DNA of 64,000 nucleotides, from contig JAENZN010000004.1 in assembly GCA_016841245.1 (NCBI GenBank), positions 127,744 through 191,743 on the forward strand, read 5' to 3'. Every line of letters begins with the position of its first letter. Position 1 is the first letter of the stretch. The DNA is from Syntrophomonas sp. (GTDB lineage: Bacteria; Bacillota; Syntrophomonadia; Syntrophomonadales; Syntrophomonadaceae). Below the pieces are notes generated by a model. It was not told the origin of the DNA and ran no database searches. It was given only the letters and a program-made list of their open reading frames with translations. This document shows, in pieces, positions 11,810-64,000 of this stretch. A program made the position numbers and the translations under genes.

Positions 11810-14497
11810 ATGGATAATTTAATTGAAGTAATTGGGATTAGGGAAGAAAACTGTACTAATTGCCATCAGTGTATAGCGGTGTGTCCGGTGAAAATATGCA
11901 GTGATGGCAGCGGAGATGTCGTAAAATTCAATAATAATCTGTGTATAGGATGTGGGCGATGTATTGAGGCCTGTATAAAAAGCCACGGAGGCATAGTTGA
12001 AAAGAGTGCCCGTTTTGCCATCGATGATGCTCCCCAGTTCACACTGGATTTGCCCCGGCATAATATTGCTGCCCTGATAGCCCCTTCAGCCCAGGGTAAT
12101 TTTAATCTGAGAAAATTAATAACTGCCCTAAAACTGTTGGGAGTCACAGACGTATATGATGTATCCCTGGGTGCAGAAATAACTGTAGCTTGTTACCATG
12201 ATCTCATACAGAACCAGAATGTCAAAACACCGGTTATAGCACAACCCTGCCCGGCAGTAGTTAAGTATATAGAACTCCATCATCCACATCTAATAGAATA
12301 CCTGGCACCAGTAGGCAGCCCGGTTCATAACCTGGCCGTTTATGTTAAATCACTGCATCCTGATAGTGAACTGGCATTTATATCTCCCTGTCTGGCCAAA
12401 CGCCGTGAATTCCAGGACAGCGGATTGATCAAATACAATGTAACCTACCAGTCAATTGCAAAAATCCTGCAGGAGAATAATATAGATCTGGATTTGCTGG
12501 AAGACGGGCAATTTGACAATATGGTTACGGCTGGGATAGCTACCAAGTTTTCAGCTCCCGGTGGTTTAAAAGAATCTTATCTGTACCACTATCCGGAAAC
12601 CTCGGACAGCAGTATTGCTAAAGTGGGAGGATCAGATGTTTACGGTAAGTACCTGGTTGAACTCGAAAGATGTATTAAAAAGGACAGTCCTTATTTACCT
12701 CTGATAGTAGATATACTTAGTTGTGCTAACGGATGTAATATCGGACCTGGTTGCATTAACAAATCACTGTCCGAAGTTGAATACTCGGTATCCAAACGCG
12801 CGGAAATAGAAACCAGTAATGATGAAACAAACCAGCAGTTGAAAGATTTTCTTGATGACATTACCCGAAAACTTAATTTCGATTATCATCAGTACAGTGA
12901 TTTATCTCGACAGAACAAGCTTAGATTTCCTACGGAAAGCGAATTGCAGAATATATACATTGAAATGCATAAGCTGGAAGAAAAGGATTTCAGGAATTGT
13001 GCGGCTTGTGGTTATAATTCCTGTTATCACATGGCATTAGCTGTTTTTAACGGTTTAAACAAAGTTGAAAACTGTCACCTTTATCAGGAAAAGGAGCTGC
13101 AGATAGAACAGCAGGCTTTGAGAAACATGCATAATGAATTGAGCAATGTTTTCGATACTATGTCTGATGGTGTAATCGTGCTTGATACCCATGGAACAGT
13201 ATCCCAGTATAACCCCGCTGCCCTTAACATTACTGGTTATTCAGACGAGACACTCATAGGTATTCATGTGGTGGATCTGTTCAGTGGGAAAGCCCCCTAT
13301 ACTCTTAAACTGCTGCAAACCGGACATCCCTTTTACGATAAAGAGATTCTGCTGGATGGCAAGCTCCGGCAAATTCATGCTACGGCCACAGGCAAACCCA
13401 TATTTGATGAATATAACCGGGTCAACGGTGCTACTATAATCCTGAGACCGATAGCACAGGTGCAGCAGTTGGTAAACACCTTGACCGGAGCTCAGGCCAG
13501 TTTTACATTTGACTCCATAATCGGAGAAGACAAACAGCTGAAAAAATCGATTAAGCTTGGCATGATGGCAGGTACTAATGATTCTAATGTACTTCTTCAA
13601 GCTGAAAGCGGAACTGGTAAAGAAGTATTTGCTCAGGCTATTCATAATCACAGCTTACGCAAGAACGGCCCTTTCGTAGCTCTCAATTGCGCAGCCCTGC
13701 CCCGGGAACTGATAAGCAGTGAATTGTTTGGCTATGCTGAAGGGGCTTTCACAGGAGCGAGACGAGGGGGAAGACCAGGTAAATTTGAATTTGCCAACGG
13801 GGGAACGCTCTTACTGGATGAGATCGGTGATATGCCTCTGGAGCAGCAGGCCACTTTACTGCGGGCTATACAGGAGAAAGCGATTTTACGAGTAGGAAGC
13901 AATACTCTGATAAAAGTTGATGTAAGAATAATTGCAGCTACCAATCAAGACCTGCTGGATCTAGTTGAGCAGGGAAGGTTTCGAGCTGATCTTTACTATA
14001 GGCTCAACGTAATTAACATCTTTATTTCGCCGCTTCGTGAAAGACGCAAAGATATTGAACTTCTTTTCCAGCATTTCTTGAAAGAGATGGCCCCTAAATT
14101 TAACCGTCATATTACCAGGGTCGATCCAGCAGTAATAAAAACCCTGGAAAATTATGATTGGCCAGGTAATGTTCGTGAACTGCAAAATGTAGTGGAAAGA
14201 ATTCTTCTTTTCGCTGAGGATGAACAGATCACTATTGATCATCTCCCTAAGGAAATTGCCGGTGCAGGTACAGTTCATTCAGAAAATACCTGGAAAGTCA
14301 GACCTGAAGCTGATAGCAATAATCCCAGTCTATCCAACCGGGATGCAAGAAAACTATATTTGCTGGAACAGGAGAAGGAGCGTATTCTATGTGCACTCAA
14401 CATGCATGGTGGTAATGTCACCAAGGCTTCAAGTGAGCTGGATATTTCACGTAATACTTTGTACCGGAAGATGAAAGCTCTAAACATCCATAACTAA
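11810..14497 (+). CDS. Sigma-54 activator with [FeFe]-hydrogenase-like H-cluster domain
   Basis: An 895-residue one-piece sensor and transcription activator. Two [4Fe-4S] clusters come first (C15, C18, C21, C25; C45, C48, C51, C55). A hydrogenase large-subunit domain follows, at about 70-325. Its H-cluster cysteines are kept: C147 (AQPCPAV), C194 with K197 (SPCLAKRRE), C305 and C309 (LSCANGC). The proton-relay cysteine before C147 is proline, as expected for a sensor rather than an enzyme. Next come a third cysteine cluster (C397, C400, C405, C422), a PAS domain (about 435-560), a sigma-54 AAA+ domain (Walker A ESGTGKE, GAFTGA loop) and a Fis-type helix-turn-helix (about 855-893). A GAGGA site precedes the ATG. 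It probably activates the sigma-54 promoter 180 bp downstream of its own stop in response to hydrogen or redox state. The domain assignments are clear; the signal is inference. Confidence 0.92.
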   Translation: MDNLIEVIGIREENCTNCHQCIAVCPVKICSDGSGDVVKFNNNLCIGCGRCIEACIKSHGGIVEKSARFAIDDAPQFTLDLPRHNIAALIAPSAQGNFNLRKLITALKLLGVTDVYDVSLGAEITVACYHDLIQNQNVKTPVIAQPCPAVVKYIELHHPHLIEYLAPVGSPVHNLAVYVKSLHPDSELAFISPCLAKRREFQDSGLIKYNVTYQSIAKILQENNIDLDLLEDGQFDNMVTAGIATKFSAPGGLKESYLYHYPETSDSSIAKVGGSDVYGKYLVELERCIKKDSPYLPLIVDILSCANGCNIGPGCINKSLSEVEYSVSKRAEIETSNDETNQQLKDFLDDITRKLNFDYHQYSDLSRQNKLRFPTESELQNIYIEMHKLEEKDFRNCAACGYNSCYHMALAVFNGLNKVENCHLYQEKELQIEQQALRNMHNELSNVFDTMSDGVIVLDTHGTVSQYNPAALNITGYSDETLIGIHVVDLFSGKAPYTLKLLQTGHPFYDKEILLDGKLRQIHATATGKPIFDEYNRVNGATIILRPIAQVQQLVNTLTGAQASFTFDSIIGEDKQLKKSIKLGMMAGTNDSNVLLQAESGTGKEVFAQAIHNHSLRKNGPFVALNCAALPRELISSELFGYAEGAFTGARRGGRPGKFEFANGGTLLLDEIGDMPLEQQATLLRAIQEKAILRVGSNTLIKVDVRIIAATNQDLLDLVEQGRFRADLYYRLNVINIFISPLRERRKDIELLFQHFLKEMAPKFNRHITRVDPAVIKTLENYDWPGNVRELQNVVERILLFAEDEQITIDHLPKEIAGAGTVHSENTWKVRPEADSNNPSLSNRDARKLYLLEQEKERILCALNMHGGNVTKASSELDISRNTLYRKMKALNIHN

Positions 14498-14547
14498 AAT
14501 ATGTGCTGGGAAAGTTCTATTTTTCTGTGTTACGGTGTAGCTATATG

Positions 14548-14573
14548 CGACATTTTACGACATTCTTTCGACA
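14548..14573. promoter_or_regulatory. Candidate activator binding site: phased CGACA repeats
   Basis: Three direct copies of CGACA start at 14548, 14558 and 14569, spaced 10 and 11 bp, so they face the same side of the helix. They lie 106-131 bp upstream of the -24 element, the usual distance for a sigma-54 enhancer site. Confidence 0.5.
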
Positions 14574-14619
14574 ATTGCTAATTTAAAGAAGATAAAATAT
14601 TTTATTAATATTCATTTTG

Positions 14620-14648
14620 CGTCCCAAACAGGGGCGTTTTCTTGTTTT
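14620..14648 (+). terminator. Terminator of the hydrogenase-domain activator gene
   Basis: Stem CGTCCC/GGGGCG (one G-T pair) with loop AAACA, followed by TTTTCTTGTTTT. It ends the activator transcript just before the next sigma-54 promoter. Confidence 0.75.
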
Positions 14649-14678
14649 GAATTAATTTTTTCATAATTATTCTATTCT

Positions 14679-14695
14679 TGGCATGATATTTGCAT
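14679..14695 (+). promoter_or_regulatory. Sigma-54 promoter (-24/-12)
   Basis: TGGCAT, five bases (GATAT), then TTGCAT: the GG and GC dinucleotides are at the required spacing, and the match to TGGCAC-N5-TTGCA is nearly full. The start site would fall near 14707, ahead of the small frame at 14758 and the acyl-CoA dehydrogenase gene. Confidence 0.88.
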
Positions 14696-14757
14696 ATACT
14701 CCAAAGGAGACATGCGAAAGAAATAACAAGCATAAAAGGAAAGGAGAGGAAAAGTAT

Positions 14758-14937
14758 ATGGCTAAAGTATTAGAAAAAACACCGAGTCTCTGTAACAACG
14801 CTGTCAACAATACTGTAGAATCTATTCCTTGTCTTTGCTGCATGAATGAGTGTGCCGGCAGGTATCATTCTTCAATAAAAAAGGGGGCACAGTGTTTGAG
14901 CCGCCATGCAGAATCTGTATGCTATGGGAGCTCGTAG
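14758..14937 (+). CDS. Short MAKVLE-family protein, probably truncated
   Basis: A 59-residue frame with an excellent AAAGGAGAGG ribosome site. Its first 35 residues are clearly homologous to the 183-residue protein at 17765: MAKVLEKTPSLCNNAVNN here against MAKVLERTLNYRNNAVND there, and a later shared SIPCxxCMN/SCPRYMN step. After residue 35 the similarity ends, and the sequence runs into thiolase-derived debris. It is either a short cysteine-rich product or the broken N-terminal part of a former gene. It is the first frame after a sigma-54 promoter. Confidence 0.5.
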   Translation: MAKVLEKTPSLCNNAVNNTVESIPCLCCMNECAGRYHSSIKKGAQCLSRHAESVCYGSS

Positions 14938-14949
14938 TTTTGCAGCTCT

Positions 14950-15222
14950 TGATCAGTTTCGAATCCAGCAGACTCGGCAGAATCGTTATGGAAGAGTCCA
15001 TTAAATGAGCTGGAATAAAACTGTAACAGATAGAGGCAGCTAATCTTCGGATTTGTATTATATGGTGGACATGAACAAAATATTTACCGTCATTGTATGA
15101 TGCATGCTGGAATTCCAAAGAAAACTAATGACTTTACTATTAATAAGTTTGCGCTTTAGGAATGAGAGCAATTAAGTTGGCAGACCAGGTTATTAAAGCC
15201 GGGGATGCTGTAGTTTACTTAT
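14950..15222 (+). pseudogene. Acetyl-CoA acetyltransferase (thiolase) remnant
   Basis: Translation in shifting frames recovers successive thiolase segments in the right order: LGRIVMEESIK, AGIKL-x-QIEAA, GGHEQNIYRHCMMHAGIPKK, TNDFTINK and MRAIKLADQVIKAGDAVV. These match the stretch around and after the family's nucleophile region (normally INKxCGSGxRAI). They are broken by stops near 15000, 15030 and 15159, and by at least one frameshift between 15157 and 15162. The catalytic cysteine motif is lost. The downstream two thirds of the gene are gone. It lies between a sigma-54 promoter and an intact acyl-CoA dehydrogenase, so a thiolase-dehydrogenase operon probably existed here. Confidence 0.85.
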
Positions 15223-15324
15223 AACATATGGCCTTCCAGATGGAAGCCGCTGGCAGATCCATTCGACAAGGTGACCACGGAATTGGTCATGAATAAATGA
15301 ATAAAAAAACAGGAGGTAATTATA

Positions 15325-17157
15325 ATGCCACATAATAATTATTTGTATCAGTTACGGGACATTAAGTTCCAGATGAAAGAATGGCTCGACATAGAAAAGC
15401 TCCTATCCTGTAATGCATATAAAGACTACTATGGAGCTGAAGACCTGGATGCATTTCTGGATGTTAACTATAAAATCTGCCGCGATGTGATATGCCCGGC
15501 CAATAAAGAATCTGATGAAATCGGTTTTAGACATGTAGGAGGAAACGAAAACGCTGTAGTCAGCCCCGATGTCTTCAAAGTTGTCTACAACACGGTTATG
15601 GACGCGCAACTTGGCCCCCATTTCGGCGACCGCGAAGTTGAAGGCCGTGTACCCCTGGCCTGGTATGCTCCGATTCTGGAAATGCAGACCGCTGCATCCC
15701 CAGCCATGGTTATGCTGTGGTGTCTGACCCAGGGTGCTACCACCGTTATCCAGGATAATGCTGCGCAAAAATTTAAAGACCTCTACCTGCCTAAAATGTA
15801 CTCGGGTGAATGGGGCGGCTCCATGTGTCTGACCGAGCCCGGCGCAGGCTCTGACGTCGGCGCTGTTCAGACCAAGTGCTTCCCCACCGATACCCCTGGT
15901 TTATACAAGATTAAAGGCCAGAAGTGCTTTATCACTACCGGAGATAATGACTGCGTTTCGAATCTTATCCATCTGGTGCTGGCCAAGACCCCGGATGGAA
16001 AACCTGGTACTGGCGGTATTAACTGTTTAATGGTTCCTAAATTTTGGGTTAACGACGATGGCAACATTACCAAATGGAATGACGTAACCACGGTAGGTAT
16101 CGAGCATAAGCTGGGCATACATGGTTCTGCCACCTGTACCCTGGCCTTTGGAGAAAACAACGATTGCTATGGCTGGATGATTGGCGATGGCCCGATAGAC
16201 GGACGCGGCAAAGGTATGACCCAGATGTTCCAGATGATGAATGAAGAACGTATCAATACTGGTATTTTCTCATTGGGCTGCATGGGTGCAGCTTACTACG
16301 CAGCTCTGGATTATGCCAGGGTTCGCGTACAGAGCAGAAAGGCCACCGATCCCAAGGGGCCCAGTGTCCGGATTATCGAGCATGAAGACGTCCGGCGCAT
16401 GCTAATGCTGCAGAAGTCCATGATGGAAGCCTGCCGGGCGTTGGTATACTCCTCCTACTACTATATCGACATGTCCAAAGAAGCTGCTACTGAGGAAGAA
16501 AGGGAGCTCGCCGATGACTTCTTCATGATTCAAAATCCGATGGCCAAGGCCTTTATATCCGACATGGCATGGGTTATGACCTCAGAATCGATGCAGGTCC
16601 ACGGCGGCTACGGCTTCATGGAAGAGTATGCTCCAGCCTCCCTGGCCCGGGACTGTAAGATCTACTCCATCTGGGAAGGCACCAATTTCATGCACGGGCA
16701 AGATTTAACCGGACGCAAATATACCATGAAGAAAGGCGAACCATTCAAGAAATGGCTGGCTCTAACCGAAGATTTCATTAACACCAAAAAGATTGCGGAA
16801 CTCGAAAAAGAATTTGCCATGTTGGCAGATGCTTTCGCTGCCTTCAAAAGTATGATGGACCTGAATGGAGACTGGATAAAGAACCATTTTGAACTGAAAC
16901 AGCTGTACGCTACCCGCATGCTGCATTCAGCCGCCAAGGTTGTAGGCGGCAGGTTCTTGCTCGAACAAGCTGTAATAGCTGCCGGCAAGCTTGCGGAACT
17001 GGGCGAAGACCACTACGATGCAAACTTCTATAAGGGCAAAATCGCCACTGCCAGGTTCTTTGTGATGAACGTTGTTCCCGAAGTATTTGGAGTTCTGAAA
17101 TCCATGCAGAATCCTGACACCAGCTGCATTGACTTGGCCGAAGAAGCGTTTATGTAA
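15325..17157 (+). CDS. Acyl-CoA dehydrogenase, long (about 600-residue) type
   Basis: FAD-dependent enzyme of 610 residues that would oxidise an acyl-CoA (butyryl-CoA or similar) to the enoyl-CoA. It has the flavin and substrate motifs SMCLTEPGAGSDVGAVQ and CFITTGDNDC, and the C-terminal catalytic region IYSIWEGTNFMHGQDL, whose WEGTN supplies the active-site glutamate. An extra C-terminal domain of about 120 residues (from about 490) marks the long subfamily. The start has an AGGAGG site nine bases upstream. GC content is visibly higher than in the debris on both sides. It is paralogous to the acd at 37181, shares the KYTMKKGEPF/KMTMKKGAVF step, and is probably driven by the sigma-54 promoter at 14679. 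Confidence 0.93.
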   Translation: MPHNNYLYQLRDIKFQMKEWLDIEKLLSCNAYKDYYGAEDLDAFLDVNYKICRDVICPANKESDEIGFRHVGGNENAVVSPDVFKVVYNTVMDAQLGPHFGDREVEGRVPLAWYAPILEMQTAASPAMVMLWCLTQGATTVIQDNAAQKFKDLYLPKMYSGEWGGSMCLTEPGAGSDVGAVQTKCFPTDTPGLYKIKGQKCFITTGDNDCVSNLIHLVLAKTPDGKPGTGGINCLMVPKFWVNDDGNITKWNDVTTVGIEHKLGIHGSATCTLAFGENNDCYGWMIGDGPIDGRGKGMTQMFQMMNEERINTGIFSLGCMGAAYYAALDYARVRVQSRKATDPKGPSVRIIEHEDVRRMLMLQKSMMEACRALVYSSYYYIDMSKEAATEEERELADDFFMIQNPMAKAFISDMAWVMTSESMQVHGGYGFMEEYAPASLARDCKIYSIWEGTNFMHGQDLTGRKYTMKKGEPFKKWLALTEDFINTKKIAELEKEFAMLADAFAAFKSMMDLNGDWIKNHFELKQLYATRMLHSAAKVVGGRFLLEQAVIAAGKLAELGEDHYDANFYKGKIATARFFVMNVVPEVFGVLKSMQNPDTSCIDLAEEAFM

Positions 17158-57669: not shown

Positions 57670-59718
57670 TTATTCTGCCTCCTCAGTAATGATTAGATTC
57701 CCGTATTGATCAACGTTCACATTTTGTCCCGGATAGATAACGGTTGAAGAACTTTTTTCTTCAATGACCACAGGTCCGGAGAACTTGGCACCAGAGCCTA
57801 ATTTTGACCGATTATACACGGGGGTATCTAGCCACCCACTTTCATTAAAACAAACCGGACGGACAGATATCTTCGCATCTTCTGTATCACTAGTCTGGGG
57901 AGATATTTTTTGCAGCTTCGGACGGGTAAGACCACCATTGCCAACAAAATGATAATTTACGATTTCTACACCGGAATTAGGAAGGCGGAAGGTGTAGGCT
58001 TGCTCATGGGCTTCATGGAAACGCTGTTTGATTACTTCTTTGTCTTCTTCCTTAAGGGGAACCGTGGGGACGGAAACCTTCACAGTGTGTTCTTGCCCTA
58101 TATAACGCATATCTACGTAATACTGACAAATCATCTGAGCAACAGGGATTCCTTCATCTGAAAATTGCTTTTCAGCCTGTTCTTGCATTCCTTGCCAAAT
58201 GTCATTGATTTCCTTAACCGGGGCTTCTGCCAGAGGAGATATGTGAGTCCTGATATAGTCATGGCGAAGATCGGTCATCAACATTCCCCATGCAGCAAAT
58301 ACCGAAGCCGCCACAGGAACGACGATTTTCTTAATATTTAATTCTCTCGCCAGAGAAGCACAATGCATAGGCCCGCCACCTCCGAAGGCTACCATGGTGA
58401 ATTCTCGTGGATCATACCCACGACGAATGGAGATAAGTTTCAGAGCATTGTACATATTGGATTCTGCCACTCGAATAATGCCCATGGCCGCTTCATTGGC
58501 ATTTAAACCAAGGGGTTCTCCTACATTTTTAACGACAGCATCCTTCACGGCATCTAAATCTACGAGATTGTCAAAATTATCGGCAGAGAGACAACCCGTC
58601 AACAGACAGGCATCAGTGGTCGTTGGTTTGGTTCCTCCGATTCCGTAAGCAACCGGTCCGGGAAGAGCACCGGCAGACTCGGGCCCCACACGCAGAGATC
58701 CTGCCTCATCGATCCAAGCTATGGAACCGCCGCCATTCCCGATTTCTACGATATCAACGACAGGAGACATGATTGGATATCCTGCATAGCTGTCGGTTCT
58801 TTCAATTCGATATTCGGTAGTGACCTTAACTTCTCCATTGTCAACGAGAGAGCATTTGGCAGTAGTACCACCGACATCGAAGGCGATCAGGTTGTCTTCT
58901 CCTATGATCTGCCCGAGGATTGCAGCACCATACACACCGGCTACAGGACCTGATTCCACCATGTTAACAGGAGCCTGTTTGGCTTGATCAAAGGTGGTTG
59001 TTCCGCCGTTTGACTGCATTATATAGCTTTTGCCTTTAAATCCTATACCTTCCAATTTTTCTGACAAATTGTTCAGATATGAAGAAGCGGTTGGCATTAC
59101 ATATGAATTTAAGGCAACAGTGGAGGTGCGTTCAAATTCCCGCCATTCACGAGTAACTGTAGAGGAAGTAGTAATAAAAACTTCCGGCCATAGAGACCTG
59201 ATGATCTCAGCGGTCTTATGTTCATGTTCGTCATTGGCATAGGAATTAATGTAACAGATTCCGATGGATTCGACTTCCTGTTCCTTGAAGTATGTAACTG
59301 CTGCATTTATATCTTCAATATTTAAAGGCTCTGCCTCTTTTCCTTTATAAGTCATTCTTCCCGCAACCTCCTGGCGAAGATAACGCGGAATGAAAGGTTC
59401 GGGTTTATGAAACACCAGATTGAACAGGTCAGGACGGTTACATCTGGCGATTTCCAGCACATCACGGAAGCCCTTGGTTGTTATTAAACCAGTTTTGCCT
59501 CCCTTACGTTCAGTAAGAGCATTAATAATCGTGGTTGTTCCATGAATGAAAGTATCTATGCTTTTAGGAGATAACTCACTTTTCTTAATGACATCGAGCA
59601 CACCATGTTCAAAGTTTGGCGGTGTTGTATGACTTTTTTGGTTCACCATGCAGCCATTGTTTTCATCAATGGAAACTAAATCGGTGAACGTTCCGCCAAT
59701 ATCGGTTGCGATACGCAT
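57670..59718 (-). CDS. hyuA: Hydantoinase/oxoprolinase subunit A (HyuA)
   Basis: A 682-residue A subunit, the ATP-using part. It opens with the phosphate-binding motif ATDIGGTFTDLVSID and contains TTIINALTERKGGKTGLITT, the second phosphate loop IAFDVGGTTAKCSLV, and GGGGPMHCASLARELNIKK. The acetate/sugar kinase-like fold binds ATP for amide hydrolysis. AAGGAGG lies eight bases before the ATG. It is the first gene of hyuA-hyuB-cupin. Confidence 0.92.
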   Translation of the reverse strand: MRIATDIGGTFTDLVSIDENNGCMVNQKSHTTPPNFEHGVLDVIKKSELSPKSIDTFIHGTTTIINALTERKGGKTGLITTKGFRDVLEIARCNRPDLFNLVFHKPEPFIPRYLRQEVAGRMTYKGKEAEPLNIEDINAAVTYFKEQEVESIGICYINSYANDEHEHKTAEIIRSLWPEVFITTSSTVTREWREFERTSTVALNSYVMPTASSYLNNLSEKLEGIGFKGKSYIMQSNGGTTTFDQAKQAPVNMVESGPVAGVYGAAILGQIIGEDNLIAFDVGGTTAKCSLVDNGEVKVTTEYRIERTDSYAGYPIMSPVVDIVEIGNGGGSIAWIDEAGSLRVGPESAGALPGPVAYGIGGTKPTTTDACLLTGCLSADNFDNLVDLDAVKDAVVKNVGEPLGLNANEAAMGIIRVAESNMYNALKLISIRRGYDPREFTMVAFGGGGPMHCASLARELNIKKIVVPVAASVFAAWGMLMTDLRHDYIRTHISPLAEAPVKEINDIWQGMQEQAEKQFSDEGIPVAQMICQYYVDMRYIGQEHTVKVSVPTVPLKEEDKEVIKQRFHEAHEQAYTFRLPNSGVEIVNYHFVGNGGLTRPKLQKISPQTSDTEDAKISVRPVCFNESGWLDTPVYNRSKLGSGAKFSGPVVIEEKSSSTVIYPGQNVNVDQYGNLIITEEAE

Positions 59719-59961
59719 ACTATTTTCCTCCTTGAATAATAAGTTTTATGAAGTAGGATTATGGCAATTTCTATATATTATAGATTTAATTTTCAAATAA
59801 CACAATTATACTGCCTTTGAAGAAAAAGCTGAAGATCTTAGGGTAAAGGTCATAAGGAAGCACACGAAATTATCAGGTCAACCAGTCAAGCAGATAAAGT
59901 GTGCAGCAGCCAAAACCTAAACGTACCAATGGATTCAGGGCAACAACCTAACATCAGGAAT
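59719..59961. other. Junction between hyu operon and mobile element
   Basis: About 240 bases. A 39-codon plus-strand frame (about 59803-59920, containing EEKAEDLRVKVIRKHTKL) ends in TAA and lacks a start; it may be a scrap of a gene cut by the element. No integrase or clear attachment site is seen. Confidence 0.4.
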
Positions 59962-59994
59962 GAAGGACGCCACAGATCGGCGTCCTTCTTTCTT
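59962..59994 (+). terminator. Terminator at left side of the mobile element
   Basis: Perfect ten-base stem GAAGGACGCC/GGCGTCCTTC with a seven-base loop, then TTTCTTTTCC. Confidence 0.78.
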
Positions 59995-60055
59995 TTCCAC
60001 GGAACTGTAAACCAATCGAAAAAATTGAACATGATACATCAATGCGCCGAAACCG

Positions 60056-60088
60056 AACCGCTTATGTGAAAACATAGGCGGTTTTTGT
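60056..60088 (+). terminator. Hairpin just upstream of the ParB-like gene
   Basis: AACCGC-TATGT pairs with ACATA-GCGGTT around a GAAA loop, followed by TTTTGTATTTTG. It lies 25 bases before the gene and may act as an attenuator or insulate it from upstream transcripts. Confidence 0.72.
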
Positions 60089-60112
60089 ATTTTGAAGTAA
60101 AGGAGAATTCCA

Positions 60113-61048
60113 ATGAATAACGAAAGCACCAGAAAAAGCGCCACCGTTGATGATCTGCTCGGACCTGTCGAAAAGACAAGAAGTAAAAATGAAGAAATCA
60201 CATTCGTGCCTTTGTCGGACCTTCACTCTTTCCCGAATCATCCATATCAGGTCAGGCAGAATGAAACGCTGACCGAACTTGCCGACAGCATCAGAGAATC
60301 CGGGGTGCTCGTGCCTGCGCTCGTGCGGCCCCGTGCGGGAGGAGGATATGAACTGATTTCCGGACACCGCCGCAAAACGGCCTGCGCAATCGCGGGCGTG
60401 TTTGAAATGCCGGTCGTCGTACGGAATATGGACGACGACACCGCAATACTGGCAATGGTAAACAGCAATTCACAGCGTGAAAACCTGCTGCCGAGCGAGA
60501 AGGCATTTGCGTATAAAATGAAGCTTGAGGCAATAAAACGTCAGGCCGGACGACCAAAAAATAATCCAGACCAAATTGGGCTGAATTATGGAGGAAAGCA
60601 ATCCAGTGAGATTTTAGGTGAACAAATCGGTGAAAGTAAAAATCAGATACAGCGCTATATCCGCCTCACGTATCTCATTCCTGAAATTCTGAAAATGGTC
60701 GATGACAAGCGCATCGCCTTCAATCCGGCTGTTGAGCTGTCTTACCTTGACGGGAAAGAACAAAAATCGCTGCTGGAAACCATGGAGAGCGAGGAATGCA
60801 CGCCGTCGCTCGCCCAGGCACAGCGGATGAAAAAGCTCAGCCGGGACGGCAAACTCGACACGGACGCCATTTTCGCCATTATGACCGAGGAAAAAGCAAA
60901 CCAGGCGCAGAAAGTTACCCTCAGGTTCAGTGCGTTACAGAAATTCTATCCGGACGGAACCACGCCAAAGCAGATCGAGGACGACCTGCTGAAGCTTCTG
61001 GAGGACAGGCAGCGCCGCCGTCAGCGGAGTAAGAAACAGGAACGATAG
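60113..61048 (+). CDS. ParB-like partition protein of a mobile element
   Basis: A 311-residue protein with a ParB N-terminal (CTP-binding) domain: VPLSDLHSFPNHPYQVR, LADSIRESGVLVPALVRP, and the nucleotide box ELISGHRRKTAC. ENLLPSEKAFAYKMKLEAIK leads into the helix-turn-helix (IGESKNQIQRYIRLTYLIPE). The C-terminus is basic. It is the type found in integrative elements of Firmicutes rather than chromosomal Spo0J. AAAGGAG precedes the ATG. No ParA is in the window, so the cluster is partial or ParA-less. GC content rises clearly here. Confidence 0.9.
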   Translation: MNNESTRKSATVDDLLGPVEKTRSKNEEITFVPLSDLHSFPNHPYQVRQNETLTELADSIRESGVLVPALVRPRAGGGYELISGHRRKTACAIAGVFEMPVVVRNMDDDTAILAMVNSNSQRENLLPSEKAFAYKMKLEAIKRQAGRPKNNPDQIGLNYGGKQSSEILGEQIGESKNQIQRYIRLTYLIPEILKMVDDKRIAFNPAVELSYLDGKEQKSLLETMESEECTPSLAQAQRMKKLSRDGKLDTDAIFAIMTEEKANQAQKVTLRFSALQKFYPDGTTPKQIEDDLLKLLEDRQRRRQRSKKQER

Positions 61049-61113
61049 TCCGCACCTTTGCGGTTTGCCGGCCGCCCTGCTACACTTGAGAAAAATAGTA
61101 AGGAGGCCTGACG

Positions 61114-61458
61114 ATGGAACTGACATATACAAAGTGCGGAGACTATCTGCTGCCGGACCTGACCCTGCCGAAGCAGACGTCCATCGGTAAATATGGGATG
61201 CTTCTCAAGACTTATCTGAAAACGTACAGGCCGGCAGCCTACACAGCCCTTCTTATCTCGGGCCGGTTGCAGGAACATCTTGCGGAGATCGACAGAACGG
61301 CAAAGGAACGCATCGAGCTGATAACAGCCCGGATGGCGGCGGCTCAAAATGTGACCGAGTCCCTGAAAGCAAACGATCAAATGAAATGGGTCGGCAGAAT
61401 GAACGCAATCCGGCAGAGCGCCGAAGAAACTGTCCTTGCAGAGGCGGTGTATCTATGA
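61114..61458 (+). CDS. tnpV: TnpV-family transposon-encoded protein
   Basis: A 114-residue protein of the TnpV family (PF14198), carried by many clostridial transposons and integrative elements. It shows the family opening GDYLLPDLTLPKQ, GKYGMLLKTYLK, then LQEHLAEIDRTAKERIE and the end MKWVGRMNAIRQSAEE. Its role is unknown. AAGGAGG lies eight bases before the ATG. Its stop overlaps the next start (ATGA at 61455-61458). Confidence 0.88.
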   Translation: MELTYTKCGDYLLPDLTLPKQTSIGKYGMLLKTYLKTYRPAAYTALLISGRLQEHLAEIDRTAKERIELITARMAAAQNVTESLKANDQMKWVGRMNAIRQSAEETVLAEAVYL

Positions 61459-61616
61459 GACGGGACAGGAGATACATACGGCTGGATACCAGCGAGCATC
61501 GGCTGCTCATCTTCGCACTCAATAAAATGCGAAACCGGCTTATCGGCGAACATCGTCCCACTGACGTAGTGGACGAACTATTGATGAAGGTAATTGATGC
61601 ACCGGTGAAAAAGTAA
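61455..61616 (+). CDS. Small basic protein of the mobile element
   Basis: A 53-residue, Arg-rich protein of unknown function that starts at the ATG overlapping the tnpV stop. The frame reads RRDRRYIRLDTSEHRLLIFA and then a helical DVVDELLMKVI. Similar short frames commonly follow tnpV in related elements. Translational coupling supports it as real. Confidence 0.65.
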   Translation: MRRDRRYIRLDTSEHRLLIFALNKMRNRLIGEHRPTDVVDELLMKVIDAPVKK

Positions 61617-61702
61617 ACAGCCATCGGAATTGAGGAGAGCAGAAATGCTCTCCTTTTTCATGCCTGAAAACGTGGCTGCGGTGTGTCCATTCATTTAGCG
61701 AG

Positions 61703-61775
61703 CATTGGGGATGTATAGCGCTTTGCGCCATCCATCCCCCCAAATGTCGCGACATTTGCGCAGGGATAATCCCTG
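61703..61775. other. Candidate oriT: cluster of three inverted repeats
   Basis: Three inverted repeats lie in a row 36 bases before mobC: GGGGATG/CATCCCC (61705-61711, 61731-61737) enclosing GCGC-TTT-GCGC; the 16-base palindrome AAATGTCGCGACATTT (61740-61755); and GCAGGGAT-A-ATCCCTGC (61758-61774). Origins of transfer of MobC/relaxase systems usually have this position and structure. The nick site is not identified. Confidence 0.6.
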
Positions 61776-61810
61776 CAGCCCTTATTTCTGACGAAAGGAA
61801 TCATAACAAT

Positions 61811-62101
61811 ATGAACAAGAACAAACAACTCAATATCCGCATGACACAGAGCGAATTTCGCGACTTTCAGAAAAAAGCAGCGAAGTCCGGACTATCCCAG
61901 TCTGCCTATATCCGTATGCTGATCAGCGGCAATGTACCGAAACCCATACCGCCGCTGGAATATGATAAACTGATGCAGGAGCTTTACGCTGTTGACGTTT
62001 CGCTGAAACGGCACGGAGCAAAACCGGAGACGATCGACGAGTTCAATCAGATATTGCTTGCCATACAGGCGGCGGTGCTGCTTCCGGACAGAATGGAATG
62101 A
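61811..62101 (+). CDS. mobC: MobC-like relaxosome protein
   Basis: A 96-residue accessory protein that helps the relaxase at oriT. The N-terminal part is a ribbon-helix-helix (LNIRMTQSEFRDFQKKAAKS, then SQSAYIRMLI), as in plasmid MobC proteins. The C-terminal half is helical. GAAAGGA precedes the ATG. The relaxase ATG follows its TGA by one base. Confidence 0.87.
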   Translation: MNKNKQLNIRMTQSEFRDFQKKAAKSGLSQSAYIRMLISGNVPKPIPPLEYDKLMQELYAVDVSLKRHGAKPETIDEFNQILLAIQAAVLLPDRME

Positions 62102-62102
62102 C

Positions 62103-63467
62103 ATGGCAACGACAAAAATCTGGCCGGTCAAAGGATGGGTCGGGCAGGCCGTGGACTACGTGGAGAATCCTGAGAAAACCAGAAACCCGTACTATGGGCA
62201 TGGCCTCTATGAAGTCATGCTCTATGCCACCAACCCGGAGAAAACGGAGCGGCAATACTATGTTGGTGGAATCAACTGCATTCCCGAAATCGCACGGCAG
62301 CAGATGACGATGTCGAAAAAAAGATACGGCAAGGAATACGGCAATGTCGCCTTCCACGCTTATCAAAGCTTTGCACCAGGCGAGGTAACGCCTGGCCAGG
62401 CGCACAGAATAGGAATGCAGTTGGCTCAGGAATTGTGGGGCCACAGATTTGAGGTGGTCGTTGCGACGCATCTCAATACCCATTGCTATCACAATCATTT
62501 TCTGATCAATTCCGTCTCTTTCGCGGACGGCAGGCGTTACAACGACTGCAAAGAAACCTACAAACTGCTCCGCGACACTTCCGACCGAATATGCCGTGAG
62601 CACCAACTGTCGGTTATCGCAAAGCCGTCGAAAACGAGGACTCCGCGCAACATTTACCTGGCCGAAAAGAGGGGCGAACCGACGCTGTACAACCTGATCC
62701 GAGCCGATGTCGACGAAGCAATTGCACAGTCTATTGTACCTAATCAGTTTTATATGGCGCTGGACCGGAAGGGTTATGAGGTGAAACGCAATGGGAAATA
62801 TGTAGCTGTTCGCCCGCCCGGAAAGGAGCGGTTTACGCGATTGAAAACACTTGGGGAAAACTACACCGAAGAGGCCATCAGACAGCGCATTCTGCGAAAC
62901 CCGCCGATTATGGGCGTCAGGCAGCCTGCAATGCAGCCACGCGAAAACACAGTTCGGCGATTTAACGGCCGGTTCAGGGACGTGAAGAAAATTTCCGGCC
63001 TGCGGGCGTTATATCTCAGTTACTGTTATAAAATGGGCATCCTGCCGAAGCGGGACCAATCGACTAAGAAGCTGCACTTTTTACTGCGTGAGGACCTGCG
63101 GAAGATGGACGAACTATTTGAACAGACAAAGCTGCTCTGCACGCATCGGATCGATACTGCAGAACAGCTTTTGTTATTTGCTGAGAACGTTCGAAATGAG
63201 ATGACGGTTCTGACCGACGAGCGCACAAGCATAATCAACAAACTCCGGCGTTGCAAAGATGCAAAGAAAACACCCGAATATAAAAATCGACGTAAAATGC
63301 TGACTAAGCGTATTGTAGAATGCCGCCGGGAACTCAAATACGTCGGCGGTATTCTCGAACGAAGCGAGTATATGAAAGAAAATCTGATAAAGATTGCTTC
63401 TGAAAAAAGTATCGAAACCGTACGCTCAGCCAACAGAGATAAAGAGCTCGGCAGATATGTGAGATGA
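62103..63467 (+). CDS. MobA/VirD2-like relaxase
   Basis: A 454-residue conjugative relaxase that nicks oriT and stays bound to the 5' end. The catalytic tyrosine is probably in VDYVENPEK near residue 18. The three-histidine metal site is in ATHLNTHCYHNHFLINS (motif III). The C-terminal half is helical and basic, about 150 residues of coiled-coil-like sequence (LLLFAENVRNEMTVLTDE). The ATG at 62103 is chosen because MobC ends one base before it. The frame opens 15 codons earlier within mobC. Confidence 0.9.
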   Translation: MATTKIWPVKGWVGQAVDYVENPEKTRNPYYGHGLYEVMLYATNPEKTERQYYVGGINCIPEIARQQMTMSKKRYGKEYGNVAFHAYQSFAPGEVTPGQAHRIGMQLAQELWGHRFEVVVATHLNTHCYHNHFLINSVSFADGRRYNDCKETYKLLRDTSDRICREHQLSVIAKPSKTRTPRNIYLAEKRGEPTLYNLIRADVDEAIAQSIVPNQFYMALDRKGYEVKRNGKYVAVRPPGKERFTRLKTLGENYTEEAIRQRILRNPPIMGVRQPAMQPRENTVRRFNGRFRDVKKISGLRALYLSYCYKMGILPKRDQSTKKLHFLLREDLRKMDELFEQTKLLCTHRIDTAEQLLLFAENVRNEMTVLTDERTSIINKLRRCKDAKKTPEYKNRRKMLTKRIVECRRELKYVGGILERSEYMKENLIKIASEKSIETVRSANRDKELGRYVR

Positions 63468-63519
63468 AGTGAAGAGCATTTTTCCCCGTGAACGATAACG
63501 ACCGCAAATCAGGCTGGAG

Positions 63520-63573
63520 AAATCCCCATGACGCGGAGCCTGATAACTCCATGTCATGGGGATTTTTATTTGA
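63520..63573 (+). terminator. Terminator at right end of the mobile gene block
   Basis: Thirteen-base perfect stem AAATCCCCATGAC/GTCATGGGGATTT with a 20-base loop, followed by TTATTTG. Confidence 0.85.
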
Positions 63574-63579
63574 TGGAAA

Positions 63580-64000
63580 TTACTCGGACAGCAGATTATA
63601 CAGCACCTGCGCCAGCTGGGCTCGAGTAGAGCTTCCCAGCTGGTCGAGTTTTCCGCCGCTGCCGGATATGACGCCCGCCGCGACGAATGTCTCCATTGCT
63701 TCTTCGGCGTAATCGGAAATCTCATCAGCATCGCTGAAATCCGAAAGGGAAGCGGTACCGTCCGTTTCAGGCAGCTCACCGAGAATATCCAGCGCACGGT
63801 ACAGGAGTGTGAACATATCCTGCCTTGTTATGTTCTCTTCAGGCGCGAACAGATTGTCGCCTACGCCGGTCGTTATGCCGAGACGTTTTGCTGATGCAAG
63901 GTAATCTGTGTAATACGTATCTCCCGCGTCATCAAAGTGATCTGTCGCACCTTCATCCGCTTCAATGCCGTATGCCCGCATGAGCATGACGATAAACTGC
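63580..64000 (-). CDS. S-layer-homology domain protein (5' part outside window)
   Basis: The C-terminal 140 residues of a larger exported protein. At least two SLH modules and part of another are seen: FIVMLMRAYGI at the edge, then FDDAGDTYYTDYLASAKRLGI with ITRQDMFTLLYRAL, then FSDADEISDYAEEAMETFVAAG with TRAQLAQVLYNLL. SLH domains bind cell-wall polymers. The frame is open to the right edge, so no start can be given. It lies convergent to the relaxase gene, outside the mobile block. Confidence 0.88.
   Translation of the reverse strand, partial: QFIVMLMRAYGIEADEGATDHFDDAGDTYYTDYLASAKRLGITTGVGDNLFAPEENITRQDMFTLLYRALDILGELPETDGTASLSDFSDADEISDYAEEAMETFVAAGVISGSGGKLDQLGSSTRAQLAQVLYNLLSE

Follow-up and report, generated by a model that had tools for sequence, protein, structure and literature searches.

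What is the role of a set of inverted repeats standing directly in front of mobilisation genes in Syntrophomonas sp., and to what kind of element do these genes belong? In a stretch of 64,000 nucleotides (the window, part of contig C21), the first-pass annotation had pointed to three consecutive inverted repeats upstream of mobC and a relaxase gene as a candidate origin of transfer (oriT). It had suggested that the block around them (59.96-63.57 kb), in which it saw no integrase and no transfer apparatus, may be mobilised in trans or may be the end of a larger element. The repeats were confirmed at 61707-61776, with mobC starting at 61811 and the relaxase gene at 62103. From comparison of sequences, the most fitting interpretation is that they form part of a divergent Tn1549-type MOBP oriT, which is a known kind of site and not something new.

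The genes of the block lie on the plus strand. A ParB-like protein (60113..61048; PF02195, PF17762 and TIGR00180) is followed by TnpV (61114..61458; PF14198, 140.8 bits) and by a 53-aa open reading frame (ORF; 61455..61616) with no Pfam match. Beyond the repeats come a MobC/NikA-like relaxosome protein of the RHH type (61811..62101; PF21983, 45 bits) and a MOBP-type relaxase of 454 aa (62103..63467, with its ATG at 62103; PF03432, 130.3 bits), both scoring above the cut-off. The relaxase retains Tyr19, His123, His130 and His132, which are invariant in a 14-row alignment and which we take to be the catalytic residues, and its reading frame looks intact. Its best relatives among the matches listed are 50-53% identical and several of them adjoin ICE genes; a tree of the 14 rows gave it no settled position. 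A terminator-like hairpin found by the repeat search (61633..61654, plus strand) forms a fourth repeat after the run of ParB, TnpV and the 53-aa ORF, and is absent from the calls of the terminator scan. That scan, which finds no more sites than it does in shuffles, placed a terminator-like site after the relaxase (63547..63561, plus strand). Rfam gave no match at E <= 1 in 59000-64000.

Relatives of the 53-aa ORF occur in two settings elsewhere. They adjoin VirD4, downstream of the relaxase, in loci L004 (6496-6654) and L031 (15254-15412), and lie about 1 kb before ParB in L079, L080, L089 and L092. In the window the ORF stands before the oriT.

The three repeats, none of them assigned to a strand, were delimited by repeat search and folding. 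The first (61707..61739), the inner stem of what would be a nic-adjacent hairpin, has perfect 7-nt arms, GGGGATG...CATCCCC, and a 19-nt loop containing GCGC/GCGC. The second (61741..61758), for which shuffles were also used, is a perfect 18-bp palindrome, CAAATGTCGCGACATTTG; the AAATGTCGCGACATTT of the first-pass annotation corresponds to 61742-61757. The third (61760..61776), a distal hairpin, reads GCAGGGAT-A-ATCCCTGC and its last base lies 34 nt upstream of mobC. Three non-overlapping repeats with arms of at least 7 and loops of at most 19 within 73 nt, limits chosen to fit the observed repeats, occur in one place in the window and in 0 of 60 dinucleotide shuffles. When arms of at least 8 were required, the best cluster in the window within 85 nt held two repeats and eight shuffles gave one or two, so that the window did not separate from the shuffles.

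Taken singly, perfect palindromes as large as this one are not unusual in a sequence of 64 kb, with 0.33 per shuffle. When up to 1 mismatch is allowed, the 18-bp palindrome has only one location in the genome, and its pattern had 0 matches in viral contigs. With up to 2 mismatches, the 18-nt core pattern matched in 6 of the 63 available genomes of the class, the genome itself included, and a reversed-pattern control matched in 2 of these. Within mobC, AATTTCGCGACTTT (61854-61867) resembles the palindrome at 12 of 14 bases, perhaps by chance.

Directly to the left of the repeats is a nic-proximal core (61694..61706, minus strand; bottom strand 5'-AATGCTCG|CTAAA) that is conserved in related loci. 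The window and 25 of 29 related loci have its pattern AGC[AG]AG[CT] no more than 1300 nt before the relaxase; it is missing in L010, L011, L033 and L059, of which L033 has a near variant. A strict signature, AGC[AG]AGCA together with a perfect hairpin (stem of at least 6) no more than 1300 nt upstream on the relaxase strand, is present in 24 of 38 related loci and missing in the other 14; many of these loci are near-copies of one another, and one of the 24, L070, is doubtful, its site being 63 nt before the relaxase. Elsewhere the signature has 2 sites in 1,209,776 strand-bases. In the window, with both strands counted, there is one site, at 61697, against 0.15 expected per shuffled window (400 shuffles). 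When the 194-nt spacer was shuffled 20,000 times, a fraction of 0.0007 carried the signature, and 0.0003 at a stem of at least 7. The proposal of an oriT is supported by comparison with known oriTs, in that the nic core of Tn1549-like ICEs and its hairpin fall in the spacer that precedes mobC, with the strand as expected.

Among the closest known systems is Tn1549 (pMG2200, locus L030), which, like Tn1549-like ICEs and the window, has MobC and a MOBP relaxase. The core and hairpin are equally spaced in the two, 409 nt before the relaxase in Tn1549 and 406 nt in the window, and the hairpin stands directly 5' of the core on the predicted cut strand of the window. The available part of one source tabulates the Tn1549 nic as RYGCTTG|C (PMC7755788); by our reading, the L030 core matches this on its bottom strand. 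The window core, ATGCTCG|C, is one base off, having GCTCG in place of the GCTTG of Tn1549, and the GCTCG variant is also present in L005-L008, L032 and L035. From its position, the nic of the window is predicted on the bottom strand at GCTCG|CTAA, opposite 61698/61699. The predicted nic lies outside the interval first proposed for the oriT, 61703-61775, to its left.

In other respects the window departs from Tn1549. The relaxase shares 30% identity with its L030 counterpart and about 50% with its nearest relatives, and no T4SS genes stand beside the block. The second arm of ICE oriTs, GCTTGTTAGGGG..CCCCTAA, is absent from the oriT region of the window, where the palindrome and another hairpin replace it. 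This distal hairpin, the third repeat, occupies the position of the TTAGGGG..CCCCTAA found in many ICE oriTs and differs from it in sequence. Taking likeness and difference together, we consider 61694-61776 a strong candidate and very probably the origin of transfer for the adjoining MobC and MOBP relaxase.

Folding bears on how such a site might work. Folded as DNA, the bottom strand of 61690-61780 has a predicted energy of -27.8 kcal/mol (z = -7.15), with a distal hairpin followed by an outer stem, made of half the palindrome and the nic-proximal bases, that encloses the inner hairpin. Of the 26 reference loci that were folded, namely those having the core with L070 excluded, 24 show a stem with its end at the predicted nic (offset 0 to +2), and among distinct loci the figure is 22 of 24; the window has +1, and the predicted folds of L009 and L050 have no stem ending at the nic. 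By computation, one half of the palindrome can form pairs with the nic-proximal core, or the entire palindrome can pair with itself. It is the core and the inner hairpin that carry the case for an oriT, and not the outer stem, because 373 of 3000 shuffles of the remaining sequence give the latter as well, so that it is not significant alone, and because the fold with the palindrome paired on itself is only 1.3 kcal/mol weaker.

The palindrome is also a possible dimer-binding site. RHH proteins bind palindromes. Together with the place of the repeats directly before mobC, this would fit a reading in which they are not an oriT at all and instead serve, with MobC bound to them, as operator and attenuator for the operon of mobC and the relaxase gene; in the available part of the literature on plasmid RA3, MobC autoregulates its operon. 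We find this reading quite improbable, as it leaves unexplained the nic core and hairpin common to ICE loci; the roles of oriT and operator may coexist.

A second reading takes the palindrome as a parS-like loading site of an orphan ParB, adjoining the oriT and separate from it. The palindrome is perfect and has, as noted, one genomic place, and the ParB is encoded within 1 kb and without a ParA: a search for the ParA-type Walker motif KGGxGK[ST] gave nothing at 59-64 kb of the window or onward to C21:202.8 kb. Counter to this, no near-palindrome centred on TCGCGA was found in the loci covered by that comparison, 16 ParB loci included, and we consider a parS role improbable. A parS common to the ParB relatives was rejected, as the compared loci gave no match. 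The two foldings could also be combined in a model of an oriT switch, in which the palindrome either pairs with the nic-proximal strand, so that the nic lies within a stem, or pairs with itself, leaving the nic region open, and in which MobC or the orphan ParB binds the palindrome and couples cutting to a partition function that the ParA of a resident ICE would lend. We rate this switch as very improbable.

If the repeats are the oriT of a Tn1549-type relaxase, the question becomes what the block belongs to. The reported lack of an integrase holds inside the window, where profiles PF00589 and PF00239 have no match, and fails beyond it. On the same contig, 8.1 kb past the right edge of the window, lies a large serine recombinase (C21:199,844-201,482; L094:3845-5483) with domains PF00239, PF07508 and PF13408, followed by DUF4368 in another frame, so that the gene is frameshifted as assembled. 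A TnpW-like ORF precedes it (22.4 bits, just under the Pfam cut-off of 25). The missing integrase may thus be an effect of the window edge, and the two genes favour the idea of the first-pass annotation that the block is the end of a larger element, with mobilisation in trans. By our reading of the annotation, two close relatives of the recombinase stand at the outer end of their elements, one beside a two-component system and one with TnpW on its inner side; the third close relative, L103, is without annotation. A two-component system is also on the inner side of the C21 recombinase, and loci such as L059, L069 and L085 combine a recombinase of this family with ParB or a relaxase.

We lean towards the view that the block is the left part of an integrative mobilizable element (IME) of about 14 kb, predicted from sequence to span about C21:187.7-201.5 kb, or from about 59.9 kb of the window to about 10 kb past its end. 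The G+C content is 0.46-0.55 at 188-201 kb, 0.36-0.49 to the left (176-187 kb) and 0.28-0.38 to the right along C21; the fall on the right, where the recombinase ends, is clear, and the rise on the left is modest, the plateau and left ranges overlapping. This left-side range, the relatives of the 53-aa ORF near ParB elsewhere and the test with arms of at least 8 lean slightly against an IME. No convincing end repeats of the putative element were found: an 11-mer (59972 and L094:5678) was judged too weak, as was a 12-mer (63469 and L094:6548) that would sit at the end of the relaxase and not at the left end of the block. A search of 4 same-genus genomes, run without a positive control, did not recover the left flank. 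In relaxase-driven integration, an element end is expected at the nic. Integration by the relaxase was set aside, as the oriT is internal rather than at the element end. The frameshift in the recombinase also counts against an IME, as does the lack of a second copy of the block among the matches listed. Such an IME is perhaps unable to excise by itself any more.

Between the block and the recombinase lie an SLH-domain protein and a 1046-aa beta-helix/cadherin-like protein (L003:11324-15931; C21:191.3-195.9 kb). The surface-protein and two-component genes suggest cargo of the element of about 14 kb; these same 8 kb may instead be chromosomal, and the SLH protein has 19 matches in the same genome. 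The ORFs scanned from the block as far as the recombinase, among them part of the intervening small ORFs, gave no T4SS family. Right of the recombinase, where Rfam gave no match at gathering score, are SIR2 and HerA defence proteins and a pair matching the PADLOC candidate PDC-M62 (L094:6773-9741 and 12805-15820; C21:202.8-211.8 kb).

The same genome carries a Tn1549-like ICE on contig C16, with VirD4, PrgI, a VirB4-like ATPase, DUF3801, a relaxase 51% identical to that of the window, ParA-ParB and an oriT of the same type (locus L004). Its ParB, which has ParA upstream, is 56% identical to that of the window. We infer that this ICE could mobilise the block in trans. Its oriT has a perfect palindrome of 26 bp, placed on the opposite side of the predicted nic (L004:10602-10627; C16:198601-198626). 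Beside its mobC are a cytosine methyltransferase, Vsr, LmuA/LmuB-like proteins and an ATPase matching several defence families (L004:11115-19214; C16:199.1-207.2 kb).

In an alternative history, the block is the remnant of a decayed Tn1549-like ICE that kept its oriT, MobC and relaxase, lost the rest by deletion, and came to lie near a serine recombinase from another insertion. On C16, relatives of ParB, TnpV and the relaxase are in the same order and direction, spread over 33 kb, as decay of this kind would have it. Arguing in the same direction are the lack of a ParA beside the window ParB, the frameshift in the recombinase and the fact that no second copy of the compact block was present among the matches listed in the relaxase, ParB, TnpV and MobC searches. 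Against it, the block holds five compact open frames and the G+C content drops where the recombinase ends. Moreover, deletion alone does not yield the order in the window, since the 53-aa ORF is before the oriT here and by VirD4 in L004 and L031; this argument is weakened by the four loci with a relative of the ORF before ParB. We regard decay of an ICE as possible, if rather doubtful.

Returning to the IME, elements with serine recombinases and canonical relaxases are already known, according to the available parts of four papers (PMC5704250, PMC5357655, PMC3158075, PMC12904643), and a literature search of partial coverage found no description of this element. IME_Rho_tet is likewise a small element that has mobC and a relaxase gene followed downstream by a serine recombinase; as far as the available part of its description goes, it differs from the proposed element in having a tetracycline resistance gene and all its ORFs in one direction (PMC12904643). 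Elements of the Tn6106/Tn4451 type share with the proposed element TnpV, a large serine recombinase at one side and a mobilisation gene, in the excerpts available (PMC3158075, PMC5704250). Membership of the Tn4451 family was rejected, as Tn4451 is listed with a MobV relaxase in the portion seen of PMC5704250 and the window relaxase is of the MOBP type (PF03432). PF03432 stands for MobP in a survey available in part, where MobP makes up 1 of 154 IME relaxases and 62 of 105 ICE relaxases in streptococci (PMC5357655). SGI1, from what is available of PMC10954446, uses the parABS of its helper; like the proposed element, it is mobilizable, has partition-related parts and may exploit a helper. It carries parS-like sites, whereas the window has a putative orphan ParB gene.

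Looking across the entire analysis, the best explanation, and one that we consider probable, is a Tn1549-type oriT on an IME of about 14 kb that is helped by the resident ICE. Here we infer binding, cutting, strand, helper and element ends as follows. MobC would bind near the repeats, and the relaxase would bind the nic-adjacent hairpin and cut the bottom strand at the predicted nic. With the relaxase-bound 5' end leading, the TnpV/ParB side would enter the recipient first and mobC and the relaxase last. The TnpW-like ORF and large serine recombinase would form the right end of the element, and the secretion system would be borrowed from a Tn1549-like ICE such as that on C16.

The comparison yields a base-exact nic prediction for a divergent MOBP relaxase, and the rule of core plus hairpin provides a simple finder of such oriTs in unannotated Firmicutes elements. 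If the IME reading is true, Syntrophomonas sp. would carry in one genome an uncommon mobilizable element, made of mobilisation genes of the ICE type, and its likely helper.
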